64,000 nucleotides of DNA. Origin: Brachybacterium vulturis. GTDB taxonomy: Bacteria > Actinomycetota > Actinomycetes > Actinomycetales > Dermabacteraceae. Positions 34,879-56,079 of this stretch are shown here, one piece after another (position 1 is the first letter of the stretch; each line of letters opens with the position of its first letter). The notes under the pieces were generated by a model, which was not told where the DNA came from, searched no databases, and saw only the letters and a program-made list of their open reading frames with translations. A program made the translations under genes and the position numbers. The DNA lies in the NCBI RefSeq assembly GCF_002407185.1, contig NZ_CP023563.1, positions 992,001-1,056,000 of the forward strand. The letters run 5' to 3'.

Positions 34879-36036
34879 GTGGCACTTCGCATTATGACCA
34901 TCTACGGCACTCGGCCAGAGGCCATCAAAGTCGCCCCTATCATCAAGGCAATCGAGCGGGCGGACGGCCTCGAAAATGTCATCGTGGTCACTGGCCAGCA
35001 TCGGGAAATGCTTGACCAAGTTAATACCATCTTCCGCATCGTCCCGGACCACGATCTGAGCATTATGAGTGCAGGCCAGAGCCTTAATGGCATTGTGGCT
35101 AAGGTGATCTCCGGTGTCGACCAGATTTTGGCAACCGAGAAGCCGGACGTCGTGATAGTCCAAGGAGATACCTCCACAGTAATGGGTGCGGCAATCGCGA
35201 CCTTCAATCGACAGATTCCCGTCGTCCACCTGGAGGCGGGGCTTCGTTCAGGTGACATAAATTCGCCTTTCCCTGAGGAAGCGAATCGGAAACTAACAAG
35301 TCAGATTGCGGCGCTTCACCTTGCGCCCACCTCGACCAGTAAGGCAAATCTGACGCGGGAAGATGTCAGCGAGAATGACATCGTCGTCACGGGAAACAGT
35401 GTGATCGATACGTTAATGTTCACGTCGAAGACTCTCGACGTACACTTCGATGACACGCGTTTGGAGGCGTTGCAGGAAGCCAAAGAGAGTGGCAACCTCA
35501 CCAGCGTCCTTCTTGTGACGGCACACCGCCGTGAGAATTTGGGATCTGCCATGGAGCGGATCGGTGCTGCCATCGCTGACCTCGCGCGAAAGTACCCCGA
35601 CCTCGCCATCGTTTTCCCCATCCACCTGAACCCTAAGGTGCGATCAGCAATTAGGCCAGCTGTCGAAGGGCTCGAGAACGTTCTCCTTGTAGAGCCACTT
35701 GCGTACGCACAATTCACTCGGATGCTCAGCATCGCAGATGTGGTTCTCACGGATTCGGGAGGGGTGCAGGAGGAAGCTCCCAGCCTCGGGAAACCAGTTC
35801 TCGTGATGCGCGAGAACACAGAGCGCCCCGAAGCCGTGGTCGCCGGAACCGTGAAACTAATTGGCACCCATCAGAATCGACTTGTCGACGAGGTTTCACT
35901 GCTGTTGGACTCGAAGGAGGCTTACAGCGGCATGGCTAACGCCGTCAATCCATACGGCGATGGAGGCGCAGCAAAGCGCACCATTGACGCGCTCAGGTGG
36001 AAGTTTTCGAACGGGCCTCGACCGATCGATTTCTAA
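34879..36036 (+). CDS. wecB: UDP-N-acetylglucosamine 2-epimerase (non-hydrolysing)
   Basis: A 385-residue cytosolic enzyme that interconverts UDP-GlcNAc and UDP-ManNAc. Typical motifs: GTRPEAIKVAPI at residues 8-19, VVQGDTSTVMGA near 93-104, HLEAGLRSGD near 117-126, VTAHRRENLG near 215-224, and LTDSGGVQEEAPSLGKP near 292-308. The GTG start is preceded by GAAGGAG. With the UDP-ManNAc dehydrogenase at 50756-52009 it would produce UDP-ManNAcA. It begins a segment of noticeably lower GC content, so it may be more recently acquired than the ABC transporter genes. Confidence 0.94.
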   Translation: MALRIMTIYGTRPEAIKVAPIIKAIERADGLENVIVVTGQHREMLDQVNTIFRIVPDHDLSIMSAGQSLNGIVAKVISGVDQILATEKPDVVIVQGDTSTVMGAAIATFNRQIPVVHLEAGLRSGDINSPFPEEANRKLTSQIAALHLAPTSTSKANLTREDVSENDIVVTGNSVIDTLMFTSKTLDVHFDDTRLEALQEAKESGNLTSVLLVTAHRRENLGSAMERIGAAIADLARKYPDLAIVFPIHLNPKVRSAIRPAVEGLENVLLVEPLAYAQFTRMLSIADVVLTDSGGVQEEAPSLGKPVLVMRENTERPEAVVAGTVKLIGTHQNRLVDEVSLLLDSKEAYSGMANAVNPYGDGGAAKRTIDALRWKFSNGPRPIDF

Positions 36037-36104: not shown

Positions 36105-36983
36105 ATGCCTTCAAAAGCTATAAGCATTAGCGAGCTCGATGATCGGGGCGCAAACGCTTCAACCCTCCGCTCCTTAGACGAAATTGACGACCTTCCCGAT
36201 CGAAGTGCCGTTGGAATCGAGATACCCATCGGACGAGGGCTTCAGCTTCAAGCACTCGTACTAAAAAAAGCTCGGGGGTTGCCCGTTGTCGCGCAGTTTC
36301 ACGGCGCTTTAGATAAATCCAAGTACGCCCCCCCGCGTTTTGAGCGCCTCGCGACTTTAAGGGACCTGGAAGTCAACTCAATTTTTTTCGCCGATCCCAC
36401 GATCATGTTGCACAGCGGTCTGCAGTTGGCGTGGTATACAGCTTGGATCGAGTTTGACTTACATGCCCTCATTGGAAGGGTAGTGAGCAAGATCGCCGCA
36501 AAACTCGGCGGGGGGAGAGTGATAACAGCCGGGTCTTCGGGCGGGGGCTTCGCGGCACTGCAGGTAGCCCCGCACGTTCGAGGTTCAATTGCTGTACCCA
36601 TGAATCCCCAGACCGCTATCCCTCGTTACCGAGTGGAGGGAGTCCACATGGGTCCTCAGAGAACCTATCGTCGCCACGTGATGCCCGAGCTTGGAAACCC
36701 GGACGAGGACTCATCAACGTTATCTGACTGGTGGCTCCCCATGGCCCACCGACTAAGCGCAGTCGAAAGATATCGTCTGGGACAGCGCACAACTGTGAAC
36801 TTTTGGCAGAACGTTAACGATGCACACCATGTGGATGAACACTATCGACCTTTCATTCAAGCTTGCGCGAGCTCTGGAATCCCCAATTTAAAATGCTTTG
36901 AATACGAGGGGCCGGCAGCTCATGTGCAACCAACTACTGCAACCTACTTGAAAGCCTTGACGATTGCTATTGAGGCATCGTAG
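36105..36983 (+). CDS. Alpha/beta-hydrolase-like protein of the polysaccharide locus
   Basis: A 292-residue protein without a signal peptide. The nucleophile elbow AGSSGGGFAALQ is near residues 141-152, with a downstream PMNPQTAIPRYR motif near 165-176 and a candidate catalytic histidine in AHHVDEHY near 246-253 or AHVQPTT near 275. The same elbow and N/S-x-QT-x-x-x-x-Y motif recur in the C-terminal parts of the proteins at 40033 and 45704. Catalysis (acyl transfer, esterase or lyase) is unknown. It is low-GC with TTA leucine codons, and a start ATG overlaps no other gene. Confidence 0.72.
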   Translation: MPSKAISISELDDRGANASTLRSLDEIDDLPDRSAVGIEIPIGRGLQLQALVLKKARGLPVVAQFHGALDKSKYAPPRFERLATLRDLEVNSIFFADPTIMLHSGLQLAWYTAWIEFDLHALIGRVVSKIAAKLGGGRVITAGSSGGGFAALQVAPHVRGSIAVPMNPQTAIPRYRVEGVHMGPQRTYRRHVMPELGNPDEDSSTLSDWWLPMAHRLSAVERYRLGQRTTVNFWQNVNDAHHVDEHYRPFIQACASSGIPNLKCFEYEGPAAHVQPTTATYLKALTIAIEAS

Positions 36984-37143
36984 CTTCGAGCTACATGTTG
37001 CGAGGCGCTGATTCGCGTAAGGTCGGGCCCTGTACCCTTGGGGGTAGGACTTTGTGTGGATGAGAAAGCGCCGGATAGACTCGGCTTGACTTCCTCAGTT
37101 AGTTGACCGATAGCAGACTCAACAGAGTCGCGAGGAGACCACG

Positions 37144-39081
37144 ATGACAGAATCACCTAGTAGTGCTGAGCAGCAAGGCCCGACCGAAGAGCAAAGACAT
37201 GGTAGGCAGACAAGCTCGATTCAGACGACGGCGATCGAGGACCTACACGAAACGGTCCAGGTGCACTCCGGACAAACCGTCCATTTCGCCATTGAATCGT
37301 ACTCCGACACTATGGAGTACGCGAATCCTGCCTTGCTACAAGTGATCGCTTCCGACGAGAGCGGGAAGAGGATACCAATTCCTGGTTGGCCCCGCGTCTC
37401 AGCACGTGTAGATGAGTACATCTATCTTCCGCCGAGCGACCCGTCAGATCCAATGTTGACGCGCTTTAGTGTCGAAGTACCAGAGGGCACGGCCACGGTT
37501 GAACTTGTGGGGCATCAGTGGCGTGCTCGAGCGCAGACGACTATTGTCGGGAAGCTCGAAATTTTTGGCGGAAGGTCAGAGGTCCCTCCGTTTCGCACCG
37601 AACTTGGTACGCGCCTCGAGTGGCCGGTCGAGCTCTACAACGAGCTTGTCGACGTACCCTCCGGCGTGGATTCGCTTGAGATCGACATTCTGGTTGCCGG
37701 TACGAAGACCGAAGCGAAGTCGCCACTCGTCTTTGAATTCTACGGTAACCACCATGAAGTGCTTCTTCCTCCGGCGGAGCTGCCGCAGAGTCCTCGCCTA
37801 GGTGCTTATCTCTACCTTGTCGCGCCACCCGCCGCGCAAGAACGCAACAAGCTAAAAGTGAGCATCCCTGATGGGGTTGCGAAGATTCGCGTTCACGGAG
37901 TGAAGTGGGCCAAGAACCAGGCCAATATTGCCGAGAAGCCTCAATTCCAATTCGAGTCGTCAAGCGGAAGGGAAGCCGTCCTCGAATGTCTACTGAATGG
38001 ATTTGAGGATTCAGATCTAGTCGTCATTGATACGACAGCTCCGCCACTCGGTCACGAGACTTTGTCACTGCGTCCGAACAACCTATCTATCGAGTACAAC
38101 AGGGCGGGGTCGAGTGTTCTCTTCGTTCCCTTTGGTGAGCTCAAGGGTTTCCCTCCAATCGTGAAGCCGGGACTTGCACAGGTCGGTCGGCAGAGTGTTT
38201 CCTCGCTCGTAGAGGAACTGGTCGAACGTAGAGCCGGTAAATCTAACATCTATATTTGCAGCTCATTCCCCTCACTGGAGTGCGTGACGCGCGCAGAGTA
38301 TTTGAGGCGGCAAGGCTGGCGCGTGGTCTACGAAGTCCGCGACGACATGGAAGAGTTCAATAGGGTGGGCTACTCCAAGTGGTATCATCCGCTCCTGGAA
38401 CGTAAGATGCTTTCCATCGCAGACGTTCGCGTTACCGTCTCAGATGCCCTCACACGAAAGATGCGGGCGATGTCGCGTGAAGATTCTACCGTTTCAACAG
38501 TACCTAATGGTGTCGCGGCTATGACGCTACGAATGTCGACATCGCTGCGATCCGAAGCGCAGCTCGAGCATCGCAATGCTTCGAACATTATCGGCTATGT
38601 GGGGCACCTCACCCCGTCATGGTTCGATTGGGAACTCTTGATTGCCGCAGCGAGGCGTCTTCCCCAATTCAACTTCGAGATCATCGGACACGGGAAGCCT
38701 TCGCACCTCGAACTCCCTTTCAATGCTCGCTTCCTTGGATCGATGTCGCACGACGAGCTCCTTCCGCATGCTGCGACCTGGCGAACTGGCATAATTCCAT
38801 TTATATCGTCGCCTCTAACTCGCGGCGTGGATCCGAATAAGATTTACGAATACTTCGCCTGGGGAATGCGAGTTGTGACGGCCCCTATGGGCTCAGTCCA
38901 GCACTATCCGTCGACCTGGGTTTACAGTAGCGCCGAGGAGTTTATTAAATCCATTCAGGAATCAATGGCCACACCAATGGATTCAAGCGAACTTGCCCGC
39001 ATTGCCGATTTCGCAGAACACTCTTCGTGGCGCAACCGGGCAGACAAAATGATGGAGCTCATTAAGGAAGGCGCATCATGA
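37144..39081 (+). CDS. Glycosyltransferase with duplicated N-terminal beta domain
   Basis: A 645-residue protein. Residues about 38-126 and 159-255 are two diverged copies of one beta-rich module, ending VPEGTATVELVGHQW and IPDGVAKIRVHGVKW. The C-terminal half is GT-B-like: a Rossmann region (YICSSFPSLECVTRAEYLRR near 374), VSTVPNGVAAM near 450-460, YVGHLTPSWFDWELLIAAAR near 482, and the nucleotide-sugar end PNKIYEYFAWG near 573-583. The function of the repeats (possibly polymer binding) is inferred only. The stop overlaps the next start (ATGA), so this and the next two genes are coupled. Confidence 0.78.
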   Translation: MTESPSSAEQQGPTEEQRHGRQTSSIQTTAIEDLHETVQVHSGQTVHFAIESYSDTMEYANPALLQVIASDESGKRIPIPGWPRVSARVDEYIYLPPSDPSDPMLTRFSVEVPEGTATVELVGHQWRARAQTTIVGKLEIFGGRSEVPPFRTELGTRLEWPVELYNELVDVPSGVDSLEIDILVAGTKTEAKSPLVFEFYGNHHEVLLPPAELPQSPRLGAYLYLVAPPAAQERNKLKVSIPDGVAKIRVHGVKWAKNQANIAEKPQFQFESSSGREAVLECLLNGFEDSDLVVIDTTAPPLGHETLSLRPNNLSIEYNRAGSSVLFVPFGELKGFPPIVKPGLAQVGRQSVSSLVEELVERRAGKSNIYICSSFPSLECVTRAEYLRRQGWRVVYEVRDDMEEFNRVGYSKWYHPLLERKMLSIADVRVTVSDALTRKMRAMSREDSTVSTVPNGVAAMTLRMSTSLRSEAQLEHRNASNIIGYVGHLTPSWFDWELLIAAARRLPQFNFEIIGHGKPSHLELPFNARFLGSMSHDELLPHAATWRTGIIPFISSPLTRGVDPNKIYEYFAWGMRVVTAPMGSVQHYPSTWVYSSAEEFIKSIQESMATPMDSSELARIADFAEHSSWRNRADKMMELIKEGAS

Positions 39082-40040
39082 AGAAGCTTATCGTATACCC
39101 GAACGCATCCAGGGGTGGAGTCGCGGCGGTGATCAGAGGACGAGCCGTCGCTGAACCGCAAACGGAGTTTCACTGCATCTTTTTTAACGATCGTGGGGGA
39201 CGGGATGCGTACAGTGATCTCCCAAACGTTCATGTGCGTGTTGTCCAGAAAGTACGCTCACACAACTATATTTCATACAGCGCTCGTGAGCACAATTATG
39301 TGCAGGTGTCCGTTATTGCGTCTCCCGAGACGGTCGAAAAAACCGAACTTCCAGAGATGACTCCGCTAGTGTACGAGTTTCACAGTTCGAACATGGAGAT
39401 TATTGCTCGCGAGATCGACGCTTTGGCATTCAATAAATTGGACCGTATCGTCGCACCGACTCGCTTCATGGCCCAAAAGATTGCCTCGAGTTTGCCTGCC
39501 AGGTCAAAAGTTCAGACGGATGTTCAGCCAAACTTAGTTGATTCGACATCTTTCTACGCCGGGCCTGCAAGGTTGCATCAGTTGGACCCGGTTAGGATTC
39601 CGCTGATATGGATTGGGCGCTTCGATAAGGGCAAGGGTTTTACTTCCTTCCTTCGGTTGCTTTCGCTTCTCCCAGATAGCTATGTCGGCGTTGCAGTCAC
39701 AAGTATCGAAAATGATCCGGCAAGGGCTGCGGAATTCTTAGGCGAGGCTGGCGCGGCTGGGGTATCTGCGCGAGTAAGCCTGCTCTTAAATCTGCCGCAG
39801 TTTAAACTGGGCGAGATGTATCGTGAAGCTGTCAGTCTCGGAGGGGCTCTGATATCGACGTCGTTGATGGAATCGTTTGGGTACGCGGTAGCGGAAGCTT
39901 TAGCTTGCGAATTGCCTATCCATGCATTTGAGCTCCCGGTGTTTGCGGAGCACGACGATCCTGCCGGCCGCTTGCATCAGGTGCCGATCGGCGATGTGAT
40001 CGCACTCGCGGATTCTGTCCAGGGGGTTGCACGTGGTTGA
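39078..40040 (+). CDS. Family 4-like glycosyltransferase
   Basis: A 320-residue glycosyltransferase. The first residues (KKLIVYPNASRGGVAAVIRG) form the acceptor domain, VAPTRFMAQKIASSL near 130-144 is typical, and the donor domain has IWIGRFDKGKGF near 176-187 and ESFGYAVAEALACELPIHAF near 263-282, the GT4 EX7E region. It is compact, lacking the extra N-terminal domains of its neighbours. Start and stop overlap the neighbouring genes. Sugar specificity unknown. Confidence 0.82.
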   Translation: MKKLIVYPNASRGGVAAVIRGRAVAEPQTEFHCIFFNDRGGRDAYSDLPNVHVRVVQKVRSHNYISYSAREHNYVQVSVIASPETVEKTELPEMTPLVYEFHSSNMEIIAREIDALAFNKLDRIVAPTRFMAQKIASSLPARSKVQTDVQPNLVDSTSFYAGPARLHQLDPVRIPLIWIGRFDKGKGFTSFLRLLSLLPDSYVGVAVTSIENDPARAAEFLGEAGAAGVSARVSLLLNLPQFKLGEMYREAVSLGGALISTSLMESFGYAVAEALACELPIHAFELPVFAEHDDPAGRLHQVPIGDVIALADSVQGVARG

Positions 40041-41922
40041 CGGTGACCCGGGTTCTTACAGCGAATACTTGGACTTAATTAGGTCCCGTGGTTCCATTCC
40101 GTTGGATCTATTGCCTCCGATCAAGGACGATAAGCTCGTCGGAAAACGGTTCGTCGAGGAGTTGGGTTTCCGGTCGGCGCGCATACTGCGCCAGTTCGAG
40201 CGTATCGAGGATATTGATATCGAGGGCATTTCGGAGCCATTCGTTCTAAAGCCGACCTTCTCTTCGTCGAATCACGGCGTGTTTCTCCTCAGAGGCACCG
40301 AGAAAAGCGGTGTGTTCTGGGATGACCAGCACCAGTGCGAGAGGTCTATCGCAGAAATCCTCCAGGTGCTTACGCAGCGATCTGAATCATCTCAGTATGA
40401 AGATAAGAGATGGATCGCAGAAGAACGAATTAGAGGCACGAACGACGATTTAGTTCCGCATGACGTCAAGTTTTTTGCTTTCCATGGGCAAATTGGTCTT
40501 GTGCAACTCACGGAGCATCGGCGCCCGCGCAATCGTGTTGCTTTCTTCGATGGTGAATTCCGAAGGCTGCCTTTCACGCCGGAGGAGTCGGGTATTCGAG
40601 TTAACCCCGCAATTCTTGAACTCCATGAACTGCCTCTCCCGGTGCACGCTTCAGAATTGATCGAAATGGCCAAAGAGATTTCTTCGGCAATGCCGACTCC
40701 GTTTGTTCGGATAGACCTCTATGATACTCCTGACGGCCCGGTGTTTGGAGAGTTCACGTTTACACCGGGCACGTTCTATTACGAGGATCGCGAAGTAATG
40801 TCGGCTGCGCTATCCAAGCAACTTGGTAGCCTTTGGTTGCAGGCTGAAACATCGCTCTGCGACCGGGATCGTGGGTCTCATAGTGCGAGGGAACTTCTCG
40901 GCGTGTTGTCCGCCGGGACGCCGAGAAGGCAAGTTTCTGTCGCTTTGCGGACCGGATCCTTTGCCTTGGAAGATCGGAGTGCGATGGCGCCCGAAATTAG
41001 TGCTTTCCGTGGCTCAGCGTCGGATGTCGTTCGGGACGCAATGCACGATGTGCCGATCAGACGATTCACCTCCCTTAGTGATGTAGAAATAGACACTGAG
41101 AGCCCTGCAAGATATATTGTTTCGGAGCGGCACGACCCACTCCCGTTGGACTTCCTTGTCTATCCCAGAGATTCAGACCGAGTTCTCGTCGGGCTTCATG
41201 GCGCCGAGTTTCGCAAGACTGCGGACCTGCCAAAGTTTCAGTTTGTCCGGTCGTTCTTAACGAGAAGCGAATCTCTGCTATTTCTAGCGGATTCCACGCT
41301 ACTGCAGAACGACCAGCTCAATTTGGGTTGGATGGCGGGAACTGAAGGGAATCATCTTCTTCCGAGGTATGCCCGGGTAGTAGATCTGGTTCAAGACTCG
41401 TTGGCTGCGAAACAGAGCGTGCTTGTTGGGCACTCCGCTGGCGGATTTATGTCAATTGCAATTGGCTCGATGATAGCTGGATCGATCGCTATTTCGGTTA
41501 ATGGGCAGACGGTACTTGAGAAGTATGAGCCCTGGACTCTGCGGCAGCTGCGGGATGCTGTCTTCTCGGGGACGGAGACTGTTGAGAGTATGATAGAGCG
41601 TTACCGCAGTAGGCTTGACCTGCGAGAAATTCTCAGTAACCGATTGGAAGGCACGCGCTTTGCCTACTTCGCGCACGCAGAGGATCCGAACACTATGACC
41701 AGATTGCCGATGTTTCCTGCGCTCGCAGAGTACCTGGGCGTAGACCCTTCAGTTGGGGGGCGTACTGAGGCCGGTGACGTGATGTCAGTGTGCCGTTGGC
41801 CGACGGCGGAGAATGTGCCGGTCCACGCACTCCCCGGAACTGTGTTGCCCTTTATCGACGCCGTCTTGGGTCAGTCGACGAGCTTTGAGTTTGGTACAAC
41901 CACCCGCTTGAGCCTTGTTTGA
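40033..41922 (+). CDS. TupA-like ATP-grasp protein fused to an alpha/beta-hydrolase-like domain
   Basis: A 629-residue fusion. Residues about 20-270 match the TupA/teichuronopeptide ATP-grasp pattern (DDKLVGKRFVEELGF near 33; FVLKPTFSSSNHGV near 70; DVKFFAFHGQIGL near 146; FGEFTFTPGTFYYEDRE near 237-253). Residues about 370-600 form a hydrolase-like module with elbow GHSAGGFMS near 463-471 and a NGQTVLEKYEPW motif following. ATP-grasp enzymes ligate carboxylates and amines, so it could attach an amino acid or peptide to the glycan and process an acyl link. The GTG at 40033 is chosen for its AGGGGG; a TTG at 40027 is an alternative. Confidence 0.72.
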   Translation: MVDGDPGSYSEYLDLIRSRGSIPLDLLPPIKDDKLVGKRFVEELGFRSARILRQFERIEDIDIEGISEPFVLKPTFSSSNHGVFLLRGTEKSGVFWDDQHQCERSIAEILQVLTQRSESSQYEDKRWIAEERIRGTNDDLVPHDVKFFAFHGQIGLVQLTEHRRPRNRVAFFDGEFRRLPFTPEESGIRVNPAILELHELPLPVHASELIEMAKEISSAMPTPFVRIDLYDTPDGPVFGEFTFTPGTFYYEDREVMSAALSKQLGSLWLQAETSLCDRDRGSHSARELLGVLSAGTPRRQVSVALRTGSFALEDRSAMAPEISAFRGSASDVVRDAMHDVPIRRFTSLSDVEIDTESPARYIVSERHDPLPLDFLVYPRDSDRVLVGLHGAEFRKTADLPKFQFVRSFLTRSESLLFLADSTLLQNDQLNLGWMAGTEGNHLLPRYARVVDLVQDSLAAKQSVLVGHSAGGFMSIAIGSMIAGSIAISVNGQTVLEKYEPWTLRQLRDAVFSGTETVESMIERYRSRLDLREILSNRLEGTRFAYFAHAEDPNTMTRLPMFPALAEYLGVDPSVGGRTEAGDVMSVCRWPTAENVPVHALPGTVLPFIDAVLGQSTSFEFGTTTRLSLV

Positions 41923-42121
41923 GCATAACTTCTGGGACCGGGGCTGGGTAGTCGCACAGAAAGGGAATGTTGGATTCTGCCTAAGTTTATTCGCCGCCAC
42001 TCATCATTACCGGCGGGCTTGTCGCCCCATCCAAACTCAATTCTGAAAGCCCACAGATTCCACGCCACATCTCCGAGATTGTCGCCACGCTCATCGAACA
42101 GGTCGCCGAAGAACCGAAACG

Positions 42122-42125
42122 CTAA
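42122..42125. repeat. IS1380 target-site duplication, left copy (CTAA)
   Basis: CTAA immediately abuts the left inverted-repeat end at 42126 and is repeated at 43830-43833 on the right, as expected for a 4-bp duplication. Confidence 0.85.
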
Positions 42126-43829
42126 CCTCGATGTTTCATCGGGTTGGTGAGCGGGGGCGGTCGGCGTCGTTGCCGATGCTCAGCTGCTGATTCTGGCATC
42201 TGGGTGTGACAGATTGTCGCAGTGTCCGTTGCGGGCGGTCGGGTTCCACTCCCGAGAAGGTGCTGGGGGCCGTAGGGACAGGTGGAGCCGCCTGGTCAGG
42301 TCTGCGCGACGGCGGTGCGGAGCCGGTTGACGCCGGTCAGGACCTTAATGGCTTCGGGAGCGTGCTGGGCGAGGTGGAGGATCTTGCGCCGGGCACGGCG
42401 CACGAGGATCGCGGGGACCTCGAACAGCCGCGCGCGAAGTCGTTTGGGCTCCCACTTCCTCGCATCAGTACTGGTCAGCGCGATGGTCTGCATCCAGGCG
42501 ACCAGCTCGGAGGCGAGCTGGATGATCTGGCACCAGATCTGGTTCTGCGCGAATCCCTGCAGCGGGAACTTCTCAAGGCCCATGTCCTTGGCGTTACGGA
42601 TCCGATCTTCGCAGCGCGCTCGGCGACGGTGTCTCAGCTCCAGGGTCGGCAGCTGGCCGCGCGGGGTGTTGGTCGCGAACGCGGTGATCCGCATTCCTTC
42701 GTGGTCGGTGATCCGCAGCTGCGCTCCGGGGTGGGGGCGCTCCTTCCGCACGATCACCCGCATCCCCGCAGGCCAGCCGGTCAGGTCCAGCAGTCCGGTC
42801 AGCTCCGCCACGAATGCCCCATCGCGGACGCCATCGTCGTCACTGTCATAGGCGGGGGTCCACGCCGCGGCCTCGTCGATGCGTTTCAGCAGGTCAGGCG
42901 TGTTTGCGGGGAGGGTGAACCCGACGGAGTAAGCCAGCCGCCGTCTGGTCAGCCACTGGAGGAAGTCCTTGGTGCCGCCGGCTCCATCGGTGCGGATCAG
43001 GACCTTCTTCGATCCCTGCCCACCCCGGACAAGCGGGCCCGCAGGCAGCTGAGCGAGAGCCTGACGGGTGACGGTGATGTGATCGGCAGCCGTGTTGGAC
43101 CCGGCGTTGCCGGGACGGAGCTGGATCGCCAACGGCTCCCCGGTCCCGTCGCTGCCGTGGTCCAGGAACGCGCACAGGGGGTGAAAGCCGTAGCCACGTT
43201 TGAAGTTGGGTGCGGCCTGCTCCTTCTCGCTGTGGGCGGTGATCAAGGTGGCGTCGAGGTCGATGACCAGCGGCTTCTTTGCGCTGGCCGCCGCAGCCGG
43301 GGAATGGTCGCCGGCCAGGACCCATGCCCGCTCTCGCGCAACCCGGCGGGCCTGGGAGATCGCTTCGATCACGGCAGGAGCGTCCTGGGCGAGCGCGGTG
43401 AGTATGCGGGAGATCGTCGGAGCCGAGGCGACGTCACCGAACACTCCCGGCTCGCACCGCAGCAGATCGGTATCCGAGGCGACCTCCCCGCCCACCGCGA
43501 GAGTCATCGCCAGGTCCAGCAAGACCTTCGCCGCGTGGTGCTCTGCCAGCGGTTTCGTCCACGGATCCAGTGCTTCGCGCAGCGAGCGGGCGAGGCCGGT
43601 GGCACCGATCGTGTCGGTCAGTAGCACCGCGCCGGCATGCGACACCGCCGGGACCTCGGCGATGTCCACTCGCGGTCGGGGGTAGAAGAACAAGGTAGGG
43701 TGGGACACCTGAAAGGTGCTCCTTCCGCCAGATCGATACGAGCTTCAACACCCCGTATCATTCCAGGTCAGGAGCACCTTTCTCTATGCCGTCCGCCGGT
43801 CGGGACCACACCACCATGAAATACCGAGG
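42126..43829 (-). mobile_element. Complete IS1380-family insertion sequence
   Basis: An element of 1704 bases. Its ends are imperfect inverted repeats: CCTCGATGTTTCATCGGG at 42126 and, on the other strand, CCTCGGTATTTCATGGTG reading inwards from 43829. CTAA flanks both ends. It holds one transposase gene spanning most of its length and a 12-base hairpin near the right end (AAAGGTGCTCCT at 43712-43723 with 43770-43781). Intact gene and duplication suggest a fairly recent insertion. It sits between two polysaccharide-locus genes without interrupting a recognisable one. Confidence 0.92.
42296..43708 (-). CDS. IS1380-family transposase
   Basis: A full-length DDE transposase of 470 residues. Visible family features include the N-terminal PRPRVDIAEVPAVSHAGAVL region, the first catalytic aspartate region LVIDLDATLITAHSEKEQA near residue 149-167, LIRTDGAGGTKDFL near 231 (second aspartate), and CEDRIRNAKDMGLEKFP near 375 (glutamate region). 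No frameshift or truncation is visible, so it may be active. It is the only gene in the element. Confidence 0.94.
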   Translation of the reverse strand: MSHPTLFFYPRPRVDIAEVPAVSHAGAVLLTDTIGATGLARSLREALDPWTKPLAEHHAAKVLLDLAMTLAVGGEVASDTDLLRCEPGVFGDVASAPTISRILTALAQDAPAVIEAISQARRVARERAWVLAGDHSPAAAASAKKPLVIDLDATLITAHSEKEQAAPNFKRGYGFHPLCAFLDHGSDGTGEPLAIQLRPGNAGSNTAADHITVTRQALAQLPAGPLVRGGQGSKKVLIRTDGAGGTKDFLQWLTRRRLAYSVGFTLPANTPDLLKRIDEAAAWTPAYDSDDDGVRDGAFVAELTGLLDLTGWPAGMRVIVRKERPHPGAQLRITDHEGMRITAFATNTPRGQLPTLELRHRRRARCEDRIRNAKDMGLEKFPLQGFAQNQIWCQIIQLASELVAWMQTIALTSTDARKWEPKRLRARLFEVPAILVRRARRKILHLAQHAPEAIKVLTGVNRLRTAVAQT

Positions 43830-43833
43830 CTAA
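43830..43833. repeat. IS1380 target-site duplication, right copy (CTAA)
   Basis: CTAA directly follows the right inverted-repeat end at 43829 and matches the copy at 42122-42125. Confidence 0.85.
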
Positions 43834-43904
43834 GCAAATGCGTCAACTCAGGGCGCGGCGGTTCCGTACAGGTCCGTTGCCCTTGCGGGAGGATTGAAGG
43901 AGCG

Positions 43905-44948
43905 ATGGGCACGACGCCGAAGGATCGACCACCACGGCCAAAGCCGTGGTGGGTCTTCAGTGTGGTCACCGTGGCGGTGATCCTCGTGGTGACCTCCGTG
44001 GTGGTCTCCCGTCCAGGACCGGATCGATCGGAACCGGACGGTTCCGAATCAGCGACTGCGGTCCCAGACGTCTCGAAGGAACCGGTTACCTTTCAAGAAT
44101 CAACCTCCCTCTCTGTGCCCGACACCATGCGCCTCCCTGGACGCACCTTCGAGGCGGAGGGCGGAAGCACCTACCTCGTGGAATTCGAGGCGACCGCATT
44201 GAAGCCGGAGGGATCCCCCGGCTCCGCCATGTACTTCGGTGCCAGCCTCGCCTGCGGCGGGCCGGACGGTGGGACGATCCGATCCGTCGGGGGCACCCAG
44301 AACGTCCGCTCGGGAGAGCGCGTGACGATCCGGAACCAATTCCTCCTCGACGCGGATCGCAGCGGCAACTATGCATGCCGAGTCTCGTTCAGCTCGCCGA
44401 GCGACGAGGCGGCCGCTGCGGGGACCACGGCGACGATCGACAGCACGTGGAGCGTCGCTCCGGCGCGCTCCGAGGCAGTCGAGGTTCCCGCGGACGAGCG
44501 CCTGCCGCGCTTGGTGCAGCCAGGGGAGCGTGCCGCCGTCTTCCGGGCGGAGCGCGAGACCAGCGACGCCTGGGGAGACCATTCCGACCTGTTGAGCACA
44601 GTCCATGTGACGTCGTGCACGATGGTCAACGGATCGACCGAGGATGGACGCACGTGGTGCCCCGAGGACCAGGTCGATCCGGCCGGAAGTGCCGTGGAGC
44701 TCACCTACCGGCTCGTCTCGATCGACGGGAACGGCGAGGTCTGTGACAGCCGGACCATCGATGTCGAGGACGCGCGGATCGAGAGGCTCACGCACCATCT
44801 GGTCCTGCACGGCGATGCCCCGATCGCGCACCCAGCCGATGCTTGCGGGACCAGGCTACGATTCGTCGTGGCGCTGGAGAACGAAGGCCCGGCACCGCTG
44901 GTTATCCATCGGAGCAATTCGACGTTCGTCATGAACACCGGTGAATGA
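43905..44948 (+). CDS. Membrane-anchored exported protein of unknown function
   Basis: A 347-residue protein with a short basic N terminus, one membrane helix (WWVFSVVTVAVILVVTSVVV near 15-34), and an extracytoplasmic region with four to six cysteines that could form disulfides (CGG near 112, ACR near 154, SCT and WCP near 235-250, VCD and ACG near 275-312). The composition is beta-rich; no family recognised. The ATG at 43905 follows GAAGGA. High GC resumes here, so it appears to be outside the low-GC insert. Confidence 0.7.
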   Translation: MGTTPKDRPPRPKPWWVFSVVTVAVILVVTSVVVSRPGPDRSEPDGSESATAVPDVSKEPVTFQESTSLSVPDTMRLPGRTFEAEGGSTYLVEFEATALKPEGSPGSAMYFGASLACGGPDGGTIRSVGGTQNVRSGERVTIRNQFLLDADRSGNYACRVSFSSPSDEAAAAGTTATIDSTWSVAPARSEAVEVPADERLPRLVQPGERAAVFRAERETSDAWGDHSDLLSTVHVTSCTMVNGSTEDGRTWCPEDQVDPAGSAVELTYRLVSIDGNGEVCDSRTIDVEDARIERLTHHLVLHGDAPIAHPADACGTRLRFVVALENEGPAPLVIHRSNSTFVMNTGE

Positions 44949-45069
44949 CCAGAGCGCTGCTCGGCTCTTCGTCTGCGCAACAGCTCTCGACCATCAGGGC
45001 TGGGACCGTTGCCTCGGGGGCATCCTGCACCTCGCTCGATACCTCGATACCTAGAAAGGCCTACCGCCC

Positions 45070-45600
45070 ATGGCGCATCTGCGGGACTTCCGGCGGGGAT
45101 TCATCTGCACCGAAAGGGGCCATCGGTTCGTGGACCCGGGACCGCTGAGCGGCTGGAATCGAGTGCTGACGTCACGATACAAGATCTTCATCCACCCCGA
45201 AGCTGATGTCGTGCGGAACGAAGACGATGAGGGTCGACTCGTCCTTGCTATCGGGGACATCTTCAGCACGAGCGTCAGTGCGAGTACTCCCGAGCTGCTC
45301 CTGCAGATTGCGGGTGGGGATCGTCGATCGCTGGATGATCTGTCGGGGCGGTATGCCCTGATCGTGATTGAGGGGGAGTCGGCGACGGTACTCCACGATC
45401 CGCTGGGGTCTCAGTCAGTCTTCTATACCCTCGGTGAGCCGTCGATTGCGGCTTCGCATTCCACATTGATTGCGGAGTGCGCGGGGATCGAGCTTTCGCC
45501 GCGGCTCAAGGAATATGTCCATGGGCCCACCCATGGCGTGGAGGAACAAGGTCTGCAACATGCTGTGTTGGACAGACGGGTCCGGTCCAGCACCCACTGA
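45070..45600 (+). pseudogene. Truncated asparagine-synthase-like gene
   Basis: The frame encodes the N-terminal glutaminase-like domain of asparagine-synthase-like proteins: LSGRYALIVIEGESATVLHD then PLGSQSVFYT near residues 95-125, and the family's LSPRLKEYV near 142. After this it degenerates into unrelated sequence and stops at 176 residues, well short of the usual 500-600, with no synthase domain. Genes of this kind occur in peptide- and glycan-modifying clusters. The N-terminal Cys that would be catalytic is absent at position 2, so even the intact ancestor may have lacked glutaminase activity. Confidence 0.6.
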
Positions 45601-45703
45601 TCCGGGAGAGTTGAGCTGTGTCGTCATCGGTCCTCTTCGCGGGGCGGGGTACAGAGCTGAGCACGCGGTTTCATGCGTCGCGACCCAGCGTAGATGCAGA
45701 CGG

Positions 45704-48550
45704 TCACGGCAGTGTCGAATAGACCTCGGTCAGCACCCGTGTATACGTTTCGTTGTCCACGGACCTGTGGCCCTGCCCCAGATCTATGTCCAGGGTCAAA
45801 AGGGACTCTGCCTGACCTGCTGACGCGTAGTGCTCGCGAAGCGGTGATTCGTGCTCTGTCACGTGGTGGGAGTCCCCAGAGTTGGAGACGATCCAGGCCC
45901 GGGGGTAGTGCCGCGTGTTCTGCATTCGTTCGGCGACGTTGATCCGCTTGATCAGATATCCGTCGGTCGGTGCCTTCCGTAGCCCGAAGGCGGGTTCTGT
46001 GGCAGCACCGACGAGGCGAGGCGGATAGCGGCGGAGATCGGTCTGAGGGCTCATCGCCACGACCGTCGAGCCGGGTATATGTGCACCCATCTGGAGCGCT
46101 GCGAATCCGCCACCGGAGCTGCCTACCAGGACGATGTTCTGCGCTCCGAGCGACCGCGCGGTGCTCTTGACGAGCTCCGCGAGCCTAGGTGCCAGATCGA
46201 GCTTCTCGGTCCCGAGGTACCAGCCGAGACGCAACGACGTGGAGAGATCGAGTGTCGGATCCGCGATCGCCATGGTCGGACCAGCGTTCAGCTCCAGCTG
46301 GTGTCGCCAGCGGAGGAAGATGGGAATCCGAACCTTGGCACGGTCGACGGCTCCCTGGAAGAGGACGGTGAGCGTTGTGCCTGCGCGTGGGTCGATCGCG
46401 AACGGCACGACGAACGGCCCTTCGATGATGCTGTGGATCGCCGGGCCAGCAGGAGCGATGTTGATCGAACCGGAGTTCCGGTGCGACACGACGGGCAGCG
46501 GGTAAAACGTCGGTCGCCAGTCCGAGACACCATCCCAGTTCACCAGAGACGTTCTCTTGGGCTCGATGAGCTTGGGATTGCTGTGTCCCCGTTCGAGCGA
46601 TCGCAGGTCGGCGATCCCAGCCGCGAGTCCGAGGTCGACGGGCTCGTGCAGTCCTTTTCGCAGTTGTTCCTCATTGAGCTCATTCGCGAGCTCCTCGCGC
46701 CGAGTCACGGGCGCATCCCAAGCCTCGAGGCGCGATGCCTCCAGCTTCTCGAACACCTCACGCCGGCTCGCCTTCTCCTGGAAGTGCGGTTTCCCGCTCG
46801 CAGTGGGGAACGTGGGTGCTTTTTCCGTGTCCGCCCCGATTGATCCGGAAGTCGGCGGTGACGTCGGAAAGGTTACGGCGTCACGACCGACCAGGATCAT
46901 CTCAGTGACTTTGCCCGTGCTCACCCGTAGGCAGAAGTATCCTCTCTCGGTGCCGGGCACATTCTCCACGGCCGGCGAGGAGGTGTTCCCGGAGGCCAGG
47001 ACCGTGATGAACCGGAAGTTCTTCCCGCGCTTAGACGCGTTGACGACGGTCGCCTCAGTCTTCTGCTTCCAGCCGGTGGCCACCCACCCGTCGAAGGGGC
47101 TGTTCTGTCCTCGGAGTTGGGACAGTTGCGTCGCCGTTCCCACGTAACTCAAAGAGGCCCTGCATTCGCCGGACGCGAGCTCGGCGCGGTGGCGCGTGAT
47201 CGAGGCGTCGACGTCCGGGCCCAGCTGCCAACGCTGAATGGCGGTGACGTCATCCCGTGATCGCACGTGGTCGACGATGACGAGATACTCGCCGGCGGTC
47301 GAGTAGATGACGCGTCGGGTGAGGGTGACCCCCTCGAAGCTGCTATCGGAGAACAGGAAGTCGTAGGCTCGATCGGTGATCGCGCGCCGACTGAGCTCCA
47401 CGACGGCATCCTTACGAGGAGTTCTACCCTCGATGGATACCAGGCTGTGCGAGGCCCGGGAGACGAGATGCTTCCGAGGGATGCTGTAGCCGTACTGGAA
47501 CTTCCCGGGATCGACAAGCCAATTGACGGTGTCGGCGCTGAACGTGATCGACCCGCCATCAGGATGTCCGTGGACACGATTCGCGGCCCCAAAACTGACG
47601 GAAAAGAACGTCTCCTCGTCGAGATTCTTCTCGGTCTCTCCCCAGCCGCTCCGCGCGAAGAGATAGCCGCGGTCATAGATCTTCAGGAGATCTGCGGGCG
47701 GTTCGCCTTTCGCGCCACCGCTGGTGACGTAGTCCGTGAACGGTGATCGCACATTCTGGGCCGTGCCGCCATCGGTGTCACCGATCGAGACGAAGGTGCC
47801 GTCAGGACGGGTGGCATGGGCGATCTCTTCGGGTGCCCGCGCATGACGTTCCGCAGCGGCGGGGCGAGGGGCTCCCTCGGCGTCGAAACGCTTCAGTGCG
47901 CGCTCGTACCAGAGGTAGTTGTTGTAGTGGTAGGCGATGGCACCCTCGCCGTTGACGCCCTGCTCATCGTATTCCTCATTGAGCAGCTGATCGAAGCGCT
48001 TTATGGCGAGGTCCGTGAACTTCTGGTCGCGGAGGATGCGCCCGCACACAAAGAGCGCCTCGTGCTGATGCATGGCGTGGTTAGCCTTGCCGAGATTCGC
48101 CGGATCCGCCATGAATTCGGCATGTTCGCGGATGGTGGCCTCGAGCCATCCGAGATCCTCGGGGGAGCGATTGCGGACGAGCGGCGCAGCCAGACAGAAC
48201 TGGATAACCCGGATGCCTTCGACCATGTCGCGCCAAACCCACTGGTGTGCAGGGTTCGAGCGCGGGTTGTTCTGCACCCAATCGCGGACGTAGCGGATCC
48301 ACATATCGTAGGCGGCGTCGTCCCCCTTCATCGCAGCCCGACGCAGAGGATCGAGCCAGCGGAGCATGTGGTACTGGTTCTGCCAATTGACGTCCTCGAA
48401 GGGATCGGCAGTCCAATCAATTACATCCGGCAGGGTCCATTCCGGATGCGGTGTCATCGTCAGCTTGCCAGCGAGCAGCTTCTTCACTGTCGGCGCATGG
48501 AACGTCGTGCCGAACGACTGGCGTTCGGCGACGGTGAAATCAAGACTCAT
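45704..48550 (-). CDS. Heparinase II/III-like lyase fused to an alpha/beta-hydrolase-like domain
   Basis: A 948-residue fusion. The N-terminal about 330 residues form the alpha/alpha toroid of heparinase II/III-type lyases (HQWVWRDMVEGIRVIQFC near 112; HAMHQHEALF near 160), followed by the beta-sandwich with the histidine motif VHGHPDGGSITFSADTVNWL near 327-346. Residues about 660-940 are an alpha/beta-hydrolase module with elbow VGSSGGGFAALQM near 811-823 and SPQTDLRRYPPR, like the proteins at 36105 and 40033. No signal peptide is visible. The ATG at 48550 is preferred over an upstream TTG. It may act on the polymer's own uronic-acid chain. Confidence 0.75.
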   Translation of the reverse strand: MSLDFTVAERQSFGTTFHAPTVKKLLAGKLTMTPHPEWTLPDVIDWTADPFEDVNWQNQYHMLRWLDPLRRAAMKGDDAAYDMWIRYVRDWVQNNPRSNPAHQWVWRDMVEGIRVIQFCLAAPLVRNRSPEDLGWLEATIREHAEFMADPANLGKANHAMHQHEALFVCGRILRDQKFTDLAIKRFDQLLNEEYDEQGVNGEGAIAYHYNNYLWYERALKRFDAEGAPRPAAAERHARAPEEIAHATRPDGTFVSIGDTDGGTAQNVRSPFTDYVTSGGAKGEPPADLLKIYDRGYLFARSGWGETEKNLDEETFFSVSFGAANRVHGHPDGGSITFSADTVNWLVDPGKFQYGYSIPRKHLVSRASHSLVSIEGRTPRKDAVVELSRRAITDRAYDFLFSDSSFEGVTLTRRVIYSTAGEYLVIVDHVRSRDDVTAIQRWQLGPDVDASITRHRAELASGECRASLSYVGTATQLSQLRGQNSPFDGWVATGWKQKTEATVVNASKRGKNFRFITVLASGNTSSPAVENVPGTERGYFCLRVSTGKVTEMILVGRDAVTFPTSPPTSGSIGADTEKAPTFPTASGKPHFQEKASRREVFEKLEASRLEAWDAPVTRREELANELNEEQLRKGLHEPVDLGLAAGIADLRSLERGHSNPKLIEPKRTSLVNWDGVSDWRPTFYPLPVVSHRNSGSINIAPAGPAIHSIIEGPFVVPFAIDPRAGTTLTVLFQGAVDRAKVRIPIFLRWRHQLELNAGPTMAIADPTLDLSTSLRLGWYLGTEKLDLAPRLAELVKSTARSLGAQNIVLVGSSGGGFAALQMGAHIPGSTVVAMSPQTDLRRYPPRLVGAATEPAFGLRKAPTDGYLIKRINVAERMQNTRHYPRAWIVSNSGDSHHVTEHESPLREHYASAGQAESLLTLDIDLGQGHRSVDNETYTRVLTEVYSTLP

Positions 48551-48575
48551 CGGAGTCGGGCCTCTCAAAGGTTAC

Positions 48576-48617: not shown

Positions 48618-50759
48618 TCAGTTACTCAGCTCTGAGTACGTTTCCGAGATGAGTTGGGCGAGCTGCTTCCAATCACGGTGCTCGACGACCCAGGCCCGTG
48701 CCTGGTCGCCGATACGGCGAGTGTGCTCCTTGTCGTTCAACAGCGTGGTCAGCTGTTCGATGAGCGACTCGGAGCTGCCCTTCTCGTGGAGGTAGCCATT
48801 CACACCCGGGGTGACGATCTCCTTGAGCGCGGCGACATCGGAGGCAATGACAGCCTTGCCCATCGCCATCGCCTCGAAAGGCTTCAGCGGGGAGACCATC
48901 TCGCACACCGGTAGCGGCAGGCGCGGGAACGGCGTGATGTCCACGAGGGAGTAGTAGCGCTCGACCTCCTCATGCGGCACCCGGCCGGTGAACGTCACCA
49001 CGTGCTCGAGTTCATGCTCCTGCACGTGGTTCTGGAAGCGTTCGAGCTCGGCACCGTCGCCGACTATCAGCACGTGGAAGTCGTCGCGTGAACGGTTCAG
49101 CACCTCCGCTGCCTCGAGGATCAGCTCGATGCCCTCATAGTCGAGGACCGAGCCGACATAGCCGATGACCGTCTTGCCCGAGACTCCGAGCCGCGAAGCG
49201 AGCTCCTCGTCCCGGGCGATCGGAGTGAAGCGTGAGGTGTCCACACCGTTCGGGACGACACTGATCTTCTCTTCGTCGACGCCGCGGTTGATCATCTCCT
49301 CGCGGAGCGCCTCGGTGATCGCGAAGACTCGCGTGGCACCCTTGGCCGCGTCGGCCTCCATGCGAGCGATGTACTTGTACATATTGCTCTTGGCCCATTC
49401 GGGGTTGCGGGACCCGCGGGTGACCTCCCAGAGACCGCGCACTTCGTAGATCGAGGGGATCCCGAGCTGGCGAGCGGTCTTCACCGCTGTCAGCCCGTTC
49501 CAGTGGTTCGAGGCCGCGTGGATGATCGCCGGTCGCTGTTCCTTCGCGAGATCCAGCAGGACGCTGGAGTACCGCTCGGTGTAGTTGAAGAGCGGATTCT
49601 TCTTCTCGATGTCACGGCCCTTGAGCAGGCGGCGGTAGTCGACGTTGCCGATGACCTCGTGCATCGGCACATCAGGCAGGTCCGCTTTCCCTGGCATGTC
49701 GTAGGGGTATCCCAGCCGCGTGACCCCGTCGACGTCCCACCCGATACGGTTCAGCTCCGAAAGCAAGCCGTGGGTACGCGTGGCGTATCCGGCAGAGTTA
49801 TGCGGCAAGGAGTTGTGCAGCAGGTAGAAGACGTGATCCCGCTGGGCCTCGTAGGCGGGCGTCGGCTTCATCTTCGGGAACGGGAAGCCGGTCTTGCCCA
49901 GCTGATAATTGCTGACCGCATTCCGCTGGACATCGGCCTGAAGACGCTTCGCCCACGCATCCTCCGGCTTGAGCGCGCGGTACCGCTCCAGATACTCGAC
50001 GAGCTGCTTCTGCTTGCCAGCCGTACGCGCACGACGAATTGCGCGACGCAGGGCATTGAGCGGGACTGCCTTCATATCGGCGGACTTCAGGAGGTCTGAA
50101 GCCACCCCGCGATTCCCGCGCGCGAGAGCAACGGTGATGTGAGCGCGCACCAGATCGTTCTCGCCGATTCCGGCTCCGGAGCCGATCGCCGTGAGCGTTT
50201 CCGTGGAGACAGCCTGGTCGAGATAGGCCTGGTTGATCTGCACGATCGCGCGGCTGACCGGATCCCCGGCGGTGCTGATGGTGTCGAGCACTCGGGTGAG
50301 CCGGTGCGGGATCGCGTAGTCGAGCGCTGCGCGGTGCTCTGCCGGGTGGGCGCTGATATCTGCTGAGAGGCGATCGAGAGCCCATGAGTTCCGCTCGGCA
50401 GGAAGATCCAGCTCGCGCACGAGCTCCAGATAGAGTTCGAGGGCGTCGACCTGGGCGCCGTTCTGCGCAAGCGACAGCGCGAGGACCTCCTCGGCAGTGC
50501 TGCCGCGAGAGATGCGGATCAGGAATCGCGCGTACTCAAGCAGAACCTTGGTGTCGAAGCCTGACGCTGCGACGGCCTCGCGGTAGCGCGGGAGGGCCTT
50601 CTCTGCTCCCGGGGCATCCAGAGTGAGCTGGCGAAGTTCGGCGAGGATGGCCTTGATGGCGTCGCTCCGCTCCTGCTGAGAGGCTCGCGCGCGGTCGTCC
50701 GCTGCCTTCCCGCCACGGAGCCAGGATCTCCCAGCCCCGGAGTTGTTGGCCTGCGTCAT
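48618..50759 (-). CDS. Glycosyltransferase with helical N-terminal extension
   Basis: A 713-residue protein. The first about 290 residues are alpha-helical and repeat-like (possibly TPR-like), and the GT-B domain starts near residue 310 (HVFYLLHNSLPHNSAGYATR). Donor-domain features are VVPNGVDTSRFTP near 510, IGYVGSVLDYEGIELILEAA near 537 and EAMAMGKAVIASDVAALKEI near 628. It is paralogous to the protein at 31139. The ATG at 50759 overlaps the wecC stop (ATGA), so it is coupled to UDP-ManNAcA synthesis and may transfer that sugar; this is inference. Confidence 0.84.
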   Translation of the reverse strand: MTQANNSGAGRSWLRGGKAADDRARASQQERSDAIKAILAELRQLTLDAPGAEKALPRYREAVAASGFDTKVLLEYARFLIRISRGSTAEEVLALSLAQNGAQVDALELYLELVRELDLPAERNSWALDRLSADISAHPAEHRAALDYAIPHRLTRVLDTISTAGDPVSRAIVQINQAYLDQAVSTETLTAIGSGAGIGENDLVRAHITVALARGNRGVASDLLKSADMKAVPLNALRRAIRRARTAGKQKQLVEYLERYRALKPEDAWAKRLQADVQRNAVSNYQLGKTGFPFPKMKPTPAYEAQRDHVFYLLHNSLPHNSAGYATRTHGLLSELNRIGWDVDGVTRLGYPYDMPGKADLPDVPMHEVIGNVDYRRLLKGRDIEKKNPLFNYTERYSSVLLDLAKEQRPAIIHAASNHWNGLTAVKTARQLGIPSIYEVRGLWEVTRGSRNPEWAKSNMYKYIARMEADAAKGATRVFAITEALREEMINRGVDEEKISVVPNGVDTSRFTPIARDEELASRLGVSGKTVIGYVGSVLDYEGIELILEAAEVLNRSRDDFHVLIVGDGAELERFQNHVQEHELEHVVTFTGRVPHEEVERYYSLVDITPFPRLPLPVCEMVSPLKPFEAMAMGKAVIASDVAALKEIVTPGVNGYLHEKGSSESLIEQLTTLLNDKEHTRRIGDQARAWVVEHRDWKQLAQLISETYSELSN

Positions 50760-52009: not shown

Positions 52010-52215
52010 CAAGGACTCCTCAAGTGGGGATTGCAGCCGGGGGGCGGGATGCCCATACCGTAACGCGGGAGCGAAGGATCGAGGAACGAAACCGCCGCCA
52101 GTTGTCACGTGTACAACAGTCCGGGGAGATGCTGGTACCGAGTTCCCCGACCTGTCACGTCGTGTTCATTTCGGGCTCACGTCCGGACCAGCGCACCAGA
52201 ATGCAGATCGGGCAC

Positions 52216-55865: not shown

Positions 55866-56079
55866 CGGCACCTCCGGAAGCGGGACAGGACCGGGCCATC
55901 CTATGAGCCCGCACCTGCTCGTCGAAGACATGCCCTCCGCGTTGCGTTCCCCACCACAATCGCACCGCAGCGCAGTGCGTCAGCGGCACGCTGAGTATTG
56001 TGTCCGAAACCGTCCGTCTCGCGGCCCCGCTCAGAGGGCCACAGTCGGGCGAAGCCCAGACCCACTCCGGAGGAGACCC

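Follow-up and report, generated by a model that had tools for sequence, protein, structure and literature searches.

The window analyzed here is a stretch of 64,000 nucleotides from Brachybacterium vulturis (contig NZ_CP023563.1, positions 992,001 to 1,056,000), and a polysaccharide gene cluster occupies about 31 to 57 kb of it. Three genes of this cluster encode an alpha/beta-hydrolase-type module, which occurs as a stand-alone protein, fused to a TupA-like ATP-grasp domain, and fused to a heparinase II/III-like lyase. The module is likely a portable sugar O-acyl (probably acetyl) transferase resembling CsaC, the capsule O-acetyltransferase of serogroup A meningococci with a Q138-extended triad that was reported in 2020 (PMC7501274), and it would act here on a uronic-acid polymer. 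This view is based on the homology of the three modules, the fold of two of them, the spacing and conservation of the active-site residues, and the gene and fusion context. The three genes and their modules are listed in window positions.

36105..36983, + strand: stand-alone module, 292 amino acids, with W110, an S144-S145 elbow, Q169, Y175, D239, H242, and H273 (codons of S145 at 36537-36539 and of Q169 at 36609-36611)
40027..41922, + strand: fusion of a TupA-like ATP-grasp domain (residues 34-254) and a module (residues about 322-631), 631 amino acids from a TTG start (606 in the database version)
40990..41919, + strand: module of the TupA fusion, with W435, an H469-S470 elbow, Q494 (41506-41508), Y500, D553, and H600
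45704..48568, - strand: fusion of a heparinase II/III-like lyase and a module, 954 amino acids (948 in the database version)
45707..46456, - strand: module of the heparinase fusion (residues 705-954), with W783, an S817-S818 elbow, Q842, Y848, D899, H902, and H934 (codons of S818 at 46115-46117 and of Q842 at 46043-46045)

An earlier note on this DNA had proposed, from a shared elbow and QT-Y motif, that one module lies at these three places, and the homology extends beyond the motif. By BLASTP, the stand-alone module is 32% identical to the heparinase-fused module across 237 aligned positions (E = 4e-26) and matches the TupA-fused module with an E value of 7e-13, and the two fused modules match each other at 7e-19; a profile-to-profile alignment with hhalign gave 99.8% probability (E = 1.6e-30, 251 columns). 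The partner labels that had been given are likewise upheld by the curated Pfam cut-offs, with 88 bits versus 25 for the TupA-like domain (9.1e-25), 53.2 versus 24 bits for Hepar_II_III_C (3.9e-14), and 47.5 versus 22 bits for Hepar_II_III_N (2.1e-12); the heparinase-like partner also aligns weakly to HepC (4fnv). The 3.8-Mb genome contains only three clear module copies. Profile A1, built from 38 rows of the stand-alone type, matched at E ≤ 0.01 in three places, none outside the 12.4-kb region 36105..48550, and a broader profile (A2) found the same three at E ≤ 1e-75, plus two weak elbow-only places (0.067 and 0.28). The weak match at 0.067 lies at genome positions 1065847-1066032 (+ strand) in a 1104-amino-acid open frame about 10 kb past the window end, and it may be a distant relative or a hydrolase elbow that matches by chance.

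In all three copies, Trp, Ser, Gln, and Tyr stand at -35, 0, +24, and +30 relative to the nucleophile Ser, a spacing identical to that of Y79, S114, Q138, and Y144 in CsaC. The elbow and the QT-Y motif thus keep an exact spacing and form part of an extended active site. The Ser-His-Asp triads are S145/D239/H273, S470/D553/H600, and S818/D899/H934, and the Gln extension at Ser+24, judged by spacing, is Q169, Q494, and Q842, respectively. A second His of CsaC (H201, at D198+3) has its counterpart in H242 of the stand-alone copy (D239+3) and in H902 of the lyase-fused copy (D899+3), and CsaC S113, which contacts coenzyme A (CoA), corresponds to S144 and S817 in the same two copies. In CsaC, an acetyl-Ser intermediate was shown, Tyr79 holds the Gln, the Q138A exchange removed 96.8% of the transfer activity, and exchange of H201 removed more than 70% (PMC7501274).

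These residues are strongly conserved. Among 207 aligned domains from protein searches, a count that leaves out P0058 and P0167 (database entries for proteins encoded in the window), the nucleophile Ser is kept in 207, Gln in 202, Asp/Glu in 200, His273 in 200, Trp in 206, Tyr175 in 185, and the second His in 165. Gln lies at exactly Ser+24 in 196 of the 207, and these 196 include 179 with Tyr at Ser+30 and 190 with Trp at Ser-35. A second set was taken from gene contexts in several phyla; after domains below 60 bits were dropped, 157 were kept, 133 of which were unique. By alignment, the 133 domains have Ser in 130, Gln in 128, Trp in 131, Asp/Glu in 117, and His273 in 127, with Gln exactly at Ser+24 in 119. 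The Gln count is not circular in this set because the pattern used to scan the contigs contained the elbow and not the Gln. As a control, 38 generic Abhydrolase_6 loci were taken from seven genomes of the order (that of B. vulturis included), six loci without a findable elbow were dropped, and a loose elbow pattern ([GA]xSx[GA]) was applied, with both of any double matches counted; Gln at Ser+24 was found in 0 of the 32 elbow-bearing loci, and Gln anywhere from +22 to +26 was found in 4. Mere coincidence of motifs among the three modules is ruled out by the pairwise and profile homology together with this control.

AlphaFold2 models reached a mean predicted local distance difference test score of 94.5 for the stand-alone module and 84.1 for the TupA-fused module. 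The earlier note had named unrelated folds as a finding that would overturn its proposal; the two modelled modules have a common fold, and the lyase-fused copy is tied to them by sequence. In the structural ranking, CsaC and an Asp2-type chain of Gap123 stand at the top for both models, tied in Z score with esterases for the stand-alone module and leading by 1.7 Z for the TupA-fused module. The earlier hint at Asp2-like acyltransferases is favored by this ranking, and, as modelled, the alpha/beta-hydrolase fold appears closest to that of CsaC.

Several observations weigh against a CsaC-like acyltransferase. The TupA-fused copy has His in place of CsaC S113 and Thr at Asp+3 in place of H201, and because of this Thr we regard it as CsaC-like in mechanism rather than as a member. 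Trp replaces CsaC Tyr79 at the same spacing in all three copies and in 206 of the 207 aligned domains. CsaC Arg148, which positions the N-acetylmannosamine (ManNAc)-phosphate acceptor (PMC7501274), has no counterpart: Gln+10 is G179 in the stand-alone copy and the column is gapped in 164 of the 207 domains, which would fit an acceptor other than ManNAc-phosphate. The ranking by Foldseek itself is headed by esterases and peptidases; for the stand-alone model, an acetyl xylan esterase ranks first and CsaC first appears at 38, and for the TupA-fused model, CsaC first appears at 11 and 6oyc_B, presumed from its length to be Gap2, at 4. By sequence, neither the stand-alone module alone nor profile A1 found anything meaningful in the PDB (A1 did not include 6yuo, a CsaC structure, at E ≤ 1), and profile A2 matched 6yuo marginally (E = 0.0097, profile positions 102-226), with two other hydrolases outscoring CsaC, only over the elbow. 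Trp or Tyr lies exactly at Ser-35 in only 70 of the 119 context domains with Gln at Ser+24, and this spacing is therefore not kept in the wider family. The argument from the Gln extension is an analogy with one characterized enzyme. Finally, the relative L154 matches XcbB/CpsF at 3.7e-9, and the serogroup X polymer is described as being without O-acetylation (PMC7501274); some relatives may thus have a function other than acetyl transfer.

The strongest rival explanation is a carbohydrate esterase (deacetylase) that removes O-acetyl groups and thereby opens the polymer to the fused lyase or another enzyme. The tied Z scores of the stand-alone fold and the first place of an acetyl xylan esterase in its Foldseek ranking would suit such an enzyme, as would the hydrolase matches, which remain below the Pfam cut-offs for all three modules (Abhydrolase_6, 16.0, 20.2, and 17.6 bits versus 26.3; Esterase, 18.1 bits versus 22). 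Pairing of an esterase with a lyase is common in polymer degradation. CsaC itself slowly hydrolyzes acetyl-CoA (PMC7501274). However, in CsaC the Gln extension is linked to transfer, none of the 32 generic elbow-bearing hydrolases has a Gln at Ser+24, and the fusion partners of the module include builders and tailors (glycosyltransferases, TupA, C5-epimerase, and hexapeptide transferase), heparinase being the sole degrading kind. In addition, no export signal is visible by eye on the three module proteins, and it would be wasteful for a cell to remove acetyl groups internally while the polymer is still being made. An esterase is thus unlikely. We give little credence to a second alternative, in which the group transferred is an acyl other than acetyl or an aminoacyl, or in which the module shifts acyl groups among sugars or takes them from a carrier, instead of moving acetyl from CoA. 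The donor is not readable from the sequence, and at the position of CsaC S113 the stand-alone and lyase-fused copies retain Ser, the TupA fusion has His, and no more than 101 of the 207 domains have Ser; the top structural matches, CsaC and the Asp2-type protein, are nevertheless reported acetyltransferases (PMC7501274; PMC5578698).

The single-contig genome (3,796,663 bases) carries around the modules a cluster of GT4-type glycosyltransferases, an ATP-binding cassette (ABC) export pair, WecB-type and WecC-type enzymes, a GT1/GT2-type protein, and a free DUF6270 protein. The other genes of the cluster and its surroundings are as follows.

32892..34833, + strand: ABC export pair, which we take to be of the Wzm/Wzt type, with a permease (32892-33821, ABC2_membrane 2.2e-8) and an ATPase (33739-34833, ABC_tran 2.4e-20)
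34879..36036, + strand: uridine diphosphate (UDP)-N-acetylglucosamine 2-epimerase of the WecB type (Epimerase_2 1.5e-113), adjoining the stand-alone module gene
37144-39081 (weakly TuaH-like) and 39078-40040, + strand: two glycosyltransferases between modules, by family profile matches
42296-43708, - strand: DDE transposase gene (DDE_Tnp_1_4 1.1e-78)
45070..45600, + strand: short open reading frame (ORF) similar to about the N-terminal third of an asparagine-synthase-like protein (GATase_7 0.095, weak)
48618..50765, - strand: GT4-type glycosyltransferase (Glycos_transf_1 3.1e-33), adjoining the lyase-module gene
50756..52108, - strand: UDP-sugar 6-dehydrogenase of the WecC type (UDPG_MGDP_dh_N 4.5e-50)
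52216-53901, - strand: protein of 561 amino acids with a hydrophobic N-terminal stretch
53940-55931: GT1/GT2-type protein
55756-56862, + strand: free-standing DUF6270 protein (domain 56125..56784, residues 124-343, 6.1e-69)
59307-61355, - strand: Acyltransferase-3 domain with a fused SGNH domain (5.8e-34 and 1.7e-33)

The transposase gene separates the TupA-module gene from the remaining cluster. Third-codon GC is 0.56 to 0.60 in the genes at 37144-41922 and ranges elsewhere in the cluster from 0.65 (WecB) to 0.91, which suggests acquisition of the cluster's middle part. The short ORF at 45070-45600 looks cut short beside the lyase-module gene; its counterparts are open frames of 472 to 507 amino acids in five other matching genomes among 38 searched in the genus, one of which lies between two module genes (L046). 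The asparagine-synthase-like label of this ORF and of P0161/L154 is weak and derives mainly from the appearance of the longer homologue; the ORF matches P0161 at E = 0.003 (weak), and the P0161 N-terminus has no family match in Pfam, NCBIfam, or the PDB. The 52216-53901 protein has no Pfam family at E ≤ 1 and an NCBIfam match at chance level, and by eye it resembles the glycoside-hydrolase type. The Acyltransferase-3/SGNH protein near the cluster is a second, different likely enzyme of surface-sugar O-acylation. No RNA family was found in the window at gathering scores.

Relatives of the module recur beside similar genes. In a paired test, 19 module loci (20 kb; those of 40 with a second region from the same contig) were compared with 19 fixed-position loci of the same genomes, module ORFs being excluded and neighbor ORFs in both sets coming from one simple caller. 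Glycosyltransferases were found at 16 versus 1 loci, WecB at 12 versus 0, WecC at 13 versus 0, Wzm at 8 versus 0, Wzt at 11 versus 6, heparinase at 6 versus 0, and DUF6270 at 6 versus 0. A lack of recurrence with glycan genes, the other outcome that the earlier note had held against its proposal, is thus clearly contradicted. A Pfam scan of 98 of the 197 test ORFs gave, among the best 25 of 99 families, UDP-sugar dehydrogenase seven times, WecB four times, and DUF6270, heparinase, and pyruvyl transferase three times each; none of these five was in the best 25 of 115 families for 98 of the 269 control ORFs (the first 98 of 126 drawn). Glycosyltransferase, WecC, and WecB genes were also present at 63, 38, and 30 of 78 loci from named species, and at 23, 13, and 6 of the 28 non-actinobacterial loci among them.

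Profile A1 matched 5 of 396 genomes from the phylum and 49 of 396 genomes from the order (21 of 110 genera), that of B. vulturis included in each case. Of the 49, 21 have at least two matches, and 15 of these 21 have at least two separate module genes within 20 kb on one contig. In genomes of named species, a relative is encoded at 134 of 161 pattern matches, from which the 78 distinct loci were kept; the 28 outside Actinomycetota, counted by titles, belong to alpha-, beta-, and gammaproteobacteria, Desulfovibrio, a Chlorobiaceae metagenome-assembled genome (MAG), and Firmicutes. The 78 loci contain 101 module ORFs (scoring at least 60), 60 of them shorter than 400 amino acids and 41 longer. 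The 41 longer ORFs carry DUF6270, the commonest assigned partner (12), heparinase (11), GT4 (2), GT2 (1), GT2 plus GT4 (1), hexapeptide transferase (1), methyltransferase (1), and an asparagine-synthase-like domain (1), several partner queries having been cut from Pfam-assigned fusions; 11 have no assigned partner, and 2 of these are tandem modules. TupA fusions beyond the window are P0171, P0182, and P0184, with the module N-terminal in the latter two, and further partners are a D-glucuronyl C5-epimerase (L041) and a PF11316 rhamnosyltransferase-like domain (P0159). A search with the lyase-fused module gave 109 proteins, 102 of them carrying PF07940, with candidate length limited by the query. 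The module had been described as used in three ways, which is far too few given about ten partner kinds overall. The literature searched, in titles and abstracts, contains no description of such fusions and no mention of DUF6270. A Neisseriaceae MAG protein found via the TupA-fused type (P0195) carries two tandem modules, and a Ruminiclostridium MAG (L160, 4753-9083) has three consecutive module genes of about 470 amino acids, the one scanned being without a Pfam family. The GSCVSRD motif in P0162 is, by eye, presumably SGNH-like.

The variety of partners would also suit a domain whose main role is docking or scaffolding, which keeps polymer enzymes together much as XcbB/CpsF-type proteins might and whose catalysis is of secondary importance or has been lost in some copies. 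The XcbB/CpsF match of L154 and the bifunctional Asp2, whose catalysis is dispensable for transport (PMC5578698), would suit such a domain too. The near invariance of Ser, Gln, Asp, and His over the 207 domains and over the 133 from several phyla argues against this reading, and we give it very little credence. In an unrooted FastTree phylogeny of 151 modules, the window copies fell into three separate sets of 14, 20, and 9 rows with local support of 99, 99, and 100, although the branch of L041, a long one, joins at the set containing the TupA-fused copy. An origin of the copies by local duplication is therefore not favored. The fewest label changes on the tree were 10 for DUF6270, 5 for glycosyltransferase, 3 for heparinase, and 2 each for TupA and the asparagine-synthase-like partner, indicating that fusions were gained or lost repeatedly, though single events may be off in a FastTree tree.

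If the module is a CsaC-like acyltransferase, it would be a cytoplasmic enzyme with acetyl-CoA as the most likely donor. Its Ser would accept the acetyl group with the help of a Ser-His-Asp triad that includes Gln as an extension and, in the stand-alone and lyase-fused copies, a second His, and the acyl-enzyme would be resolved by a sugar hydroxyl instead of water. The neighboring genes suggest a polymer containing uronic acid, in the simplest case N-acetylmannosaminuronic acid (ManNAcA). The WecB-type epimerase would provide UDP-ManNAc and the WecC-type dehydrogenase probably UDP-ManNAcA, and the glycosyltransferases and the export pair would build and export the ManNAcA-type acceptor. C5-epimerase and heparinase, both partners of the module, act on uronates. 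Micrococcus luteus teichuronic acid is reported to contain ManNAcA (PMC3005890), and an M. luteus protein (P0024) is among the module relatives. C6-carboxylate amidation of glucuronic acid by a TupA-like domain has been demonstrated in a Campylobacter capsule. The fusions may join acylation with C6-carboxylate amidation (TupA) and polymer cutting (heparinase-like), and the three tree sets would fit three different positions or steps of acylation. Of the shared step that had been suggested, acyl or peptidyl decoration of the glycan, the acyl part is supported by the fold ranking, the Gln-extended site, and the recurrence with glycan genes; peptidyl decoration is not favored for the module, an amide-forming role fitting the TupA partner instead.

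A broader reading, to be taken as a whole, is a serious possibility that falls somewhat short of even. The modules may form a superfamily of Gln-extended alpha/beta-hydrolase sugar acyltransferases in several phyla, used as a swappable part of two-step machines that acylate and tailor, with lyases, amide ligases, C5-epimerases, glycosyltransferases, and DUF6270 as partners; in the lyase fusion, acetylation would protect the polymer, bare stretches would be cut, and chain length would be set in this way. The authors of the CsaC study note that Q138 also occurs in uncharacterized proteins and ask whether esterases can in general be turned into transferases by an additional Gln (PMC7501274), a question that this reading, if true, would answer. 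The many environmental members with diverse fusions make the generality of the Gln extension testable. In addition, the finding would point to O-acylation of actinobacterial uronic-acid polymers, suggest a likely function for proteins named in their sources "hypothetical protein," "Esterase," or "ACP S-malonyltransferase," and provide, through the fusions, a functional lead for DUF6270.

Among known systems, CsaC (structures 6yuo, 6yuq, 6yus, and 6yuv; PMC7501274) is the closest, sharing the fold, the triad, Gln at Ser+24, an aromatic residue at Ser-35, Tyr at Gln+6, and a polysaccharide locus, and being the top structural match. It differs in its low sequence similarity (E = 0.01), in the frequent fusion of the module to partner enzymes, and in the acceptor, which here is probably a uronate polymer and in CsaC a phosphodiester polymer. 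The step had been called undescribed, which is right only in part, as CsaC and the existence of unnamed Gln-extended relatives have already been published (PMC7501274); some relatives may already be listed in Supplementary Fig. 27 and Data 1 of the CsaC study. XcbB/CpsF (NF033892) matches the lyase-fused copy (0.062) and L154 only weakly over the elbow region, far below the 125-bit cut-off. Asp2/Gap2 is the N-acetylglucosamine O-acetyltransferase of the accessory Sec system and, unlike the module, is reported only from adhesin/accessory-Sec operons (PMC5578698). OatC/CssE and Escherichia coli K15 ORF5, likened here by description, are capsule O-acetyltransferases of the alpha/beta-hydrolase type and agree in fold class and in their capsule loci (PMC7387560). 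K15 ORF5, whose function is itself deduced, is placed in Pfam UPF0227 (PMC7387560), which the module relative L159 also matches above the cut-off (24.1 versus 21 bits). Set beside these enzymes, the homology and recurrence of the module are real, and with moderate confidence in the function inferred from them, we consider it a wider, modular variant of a known enzyme type.

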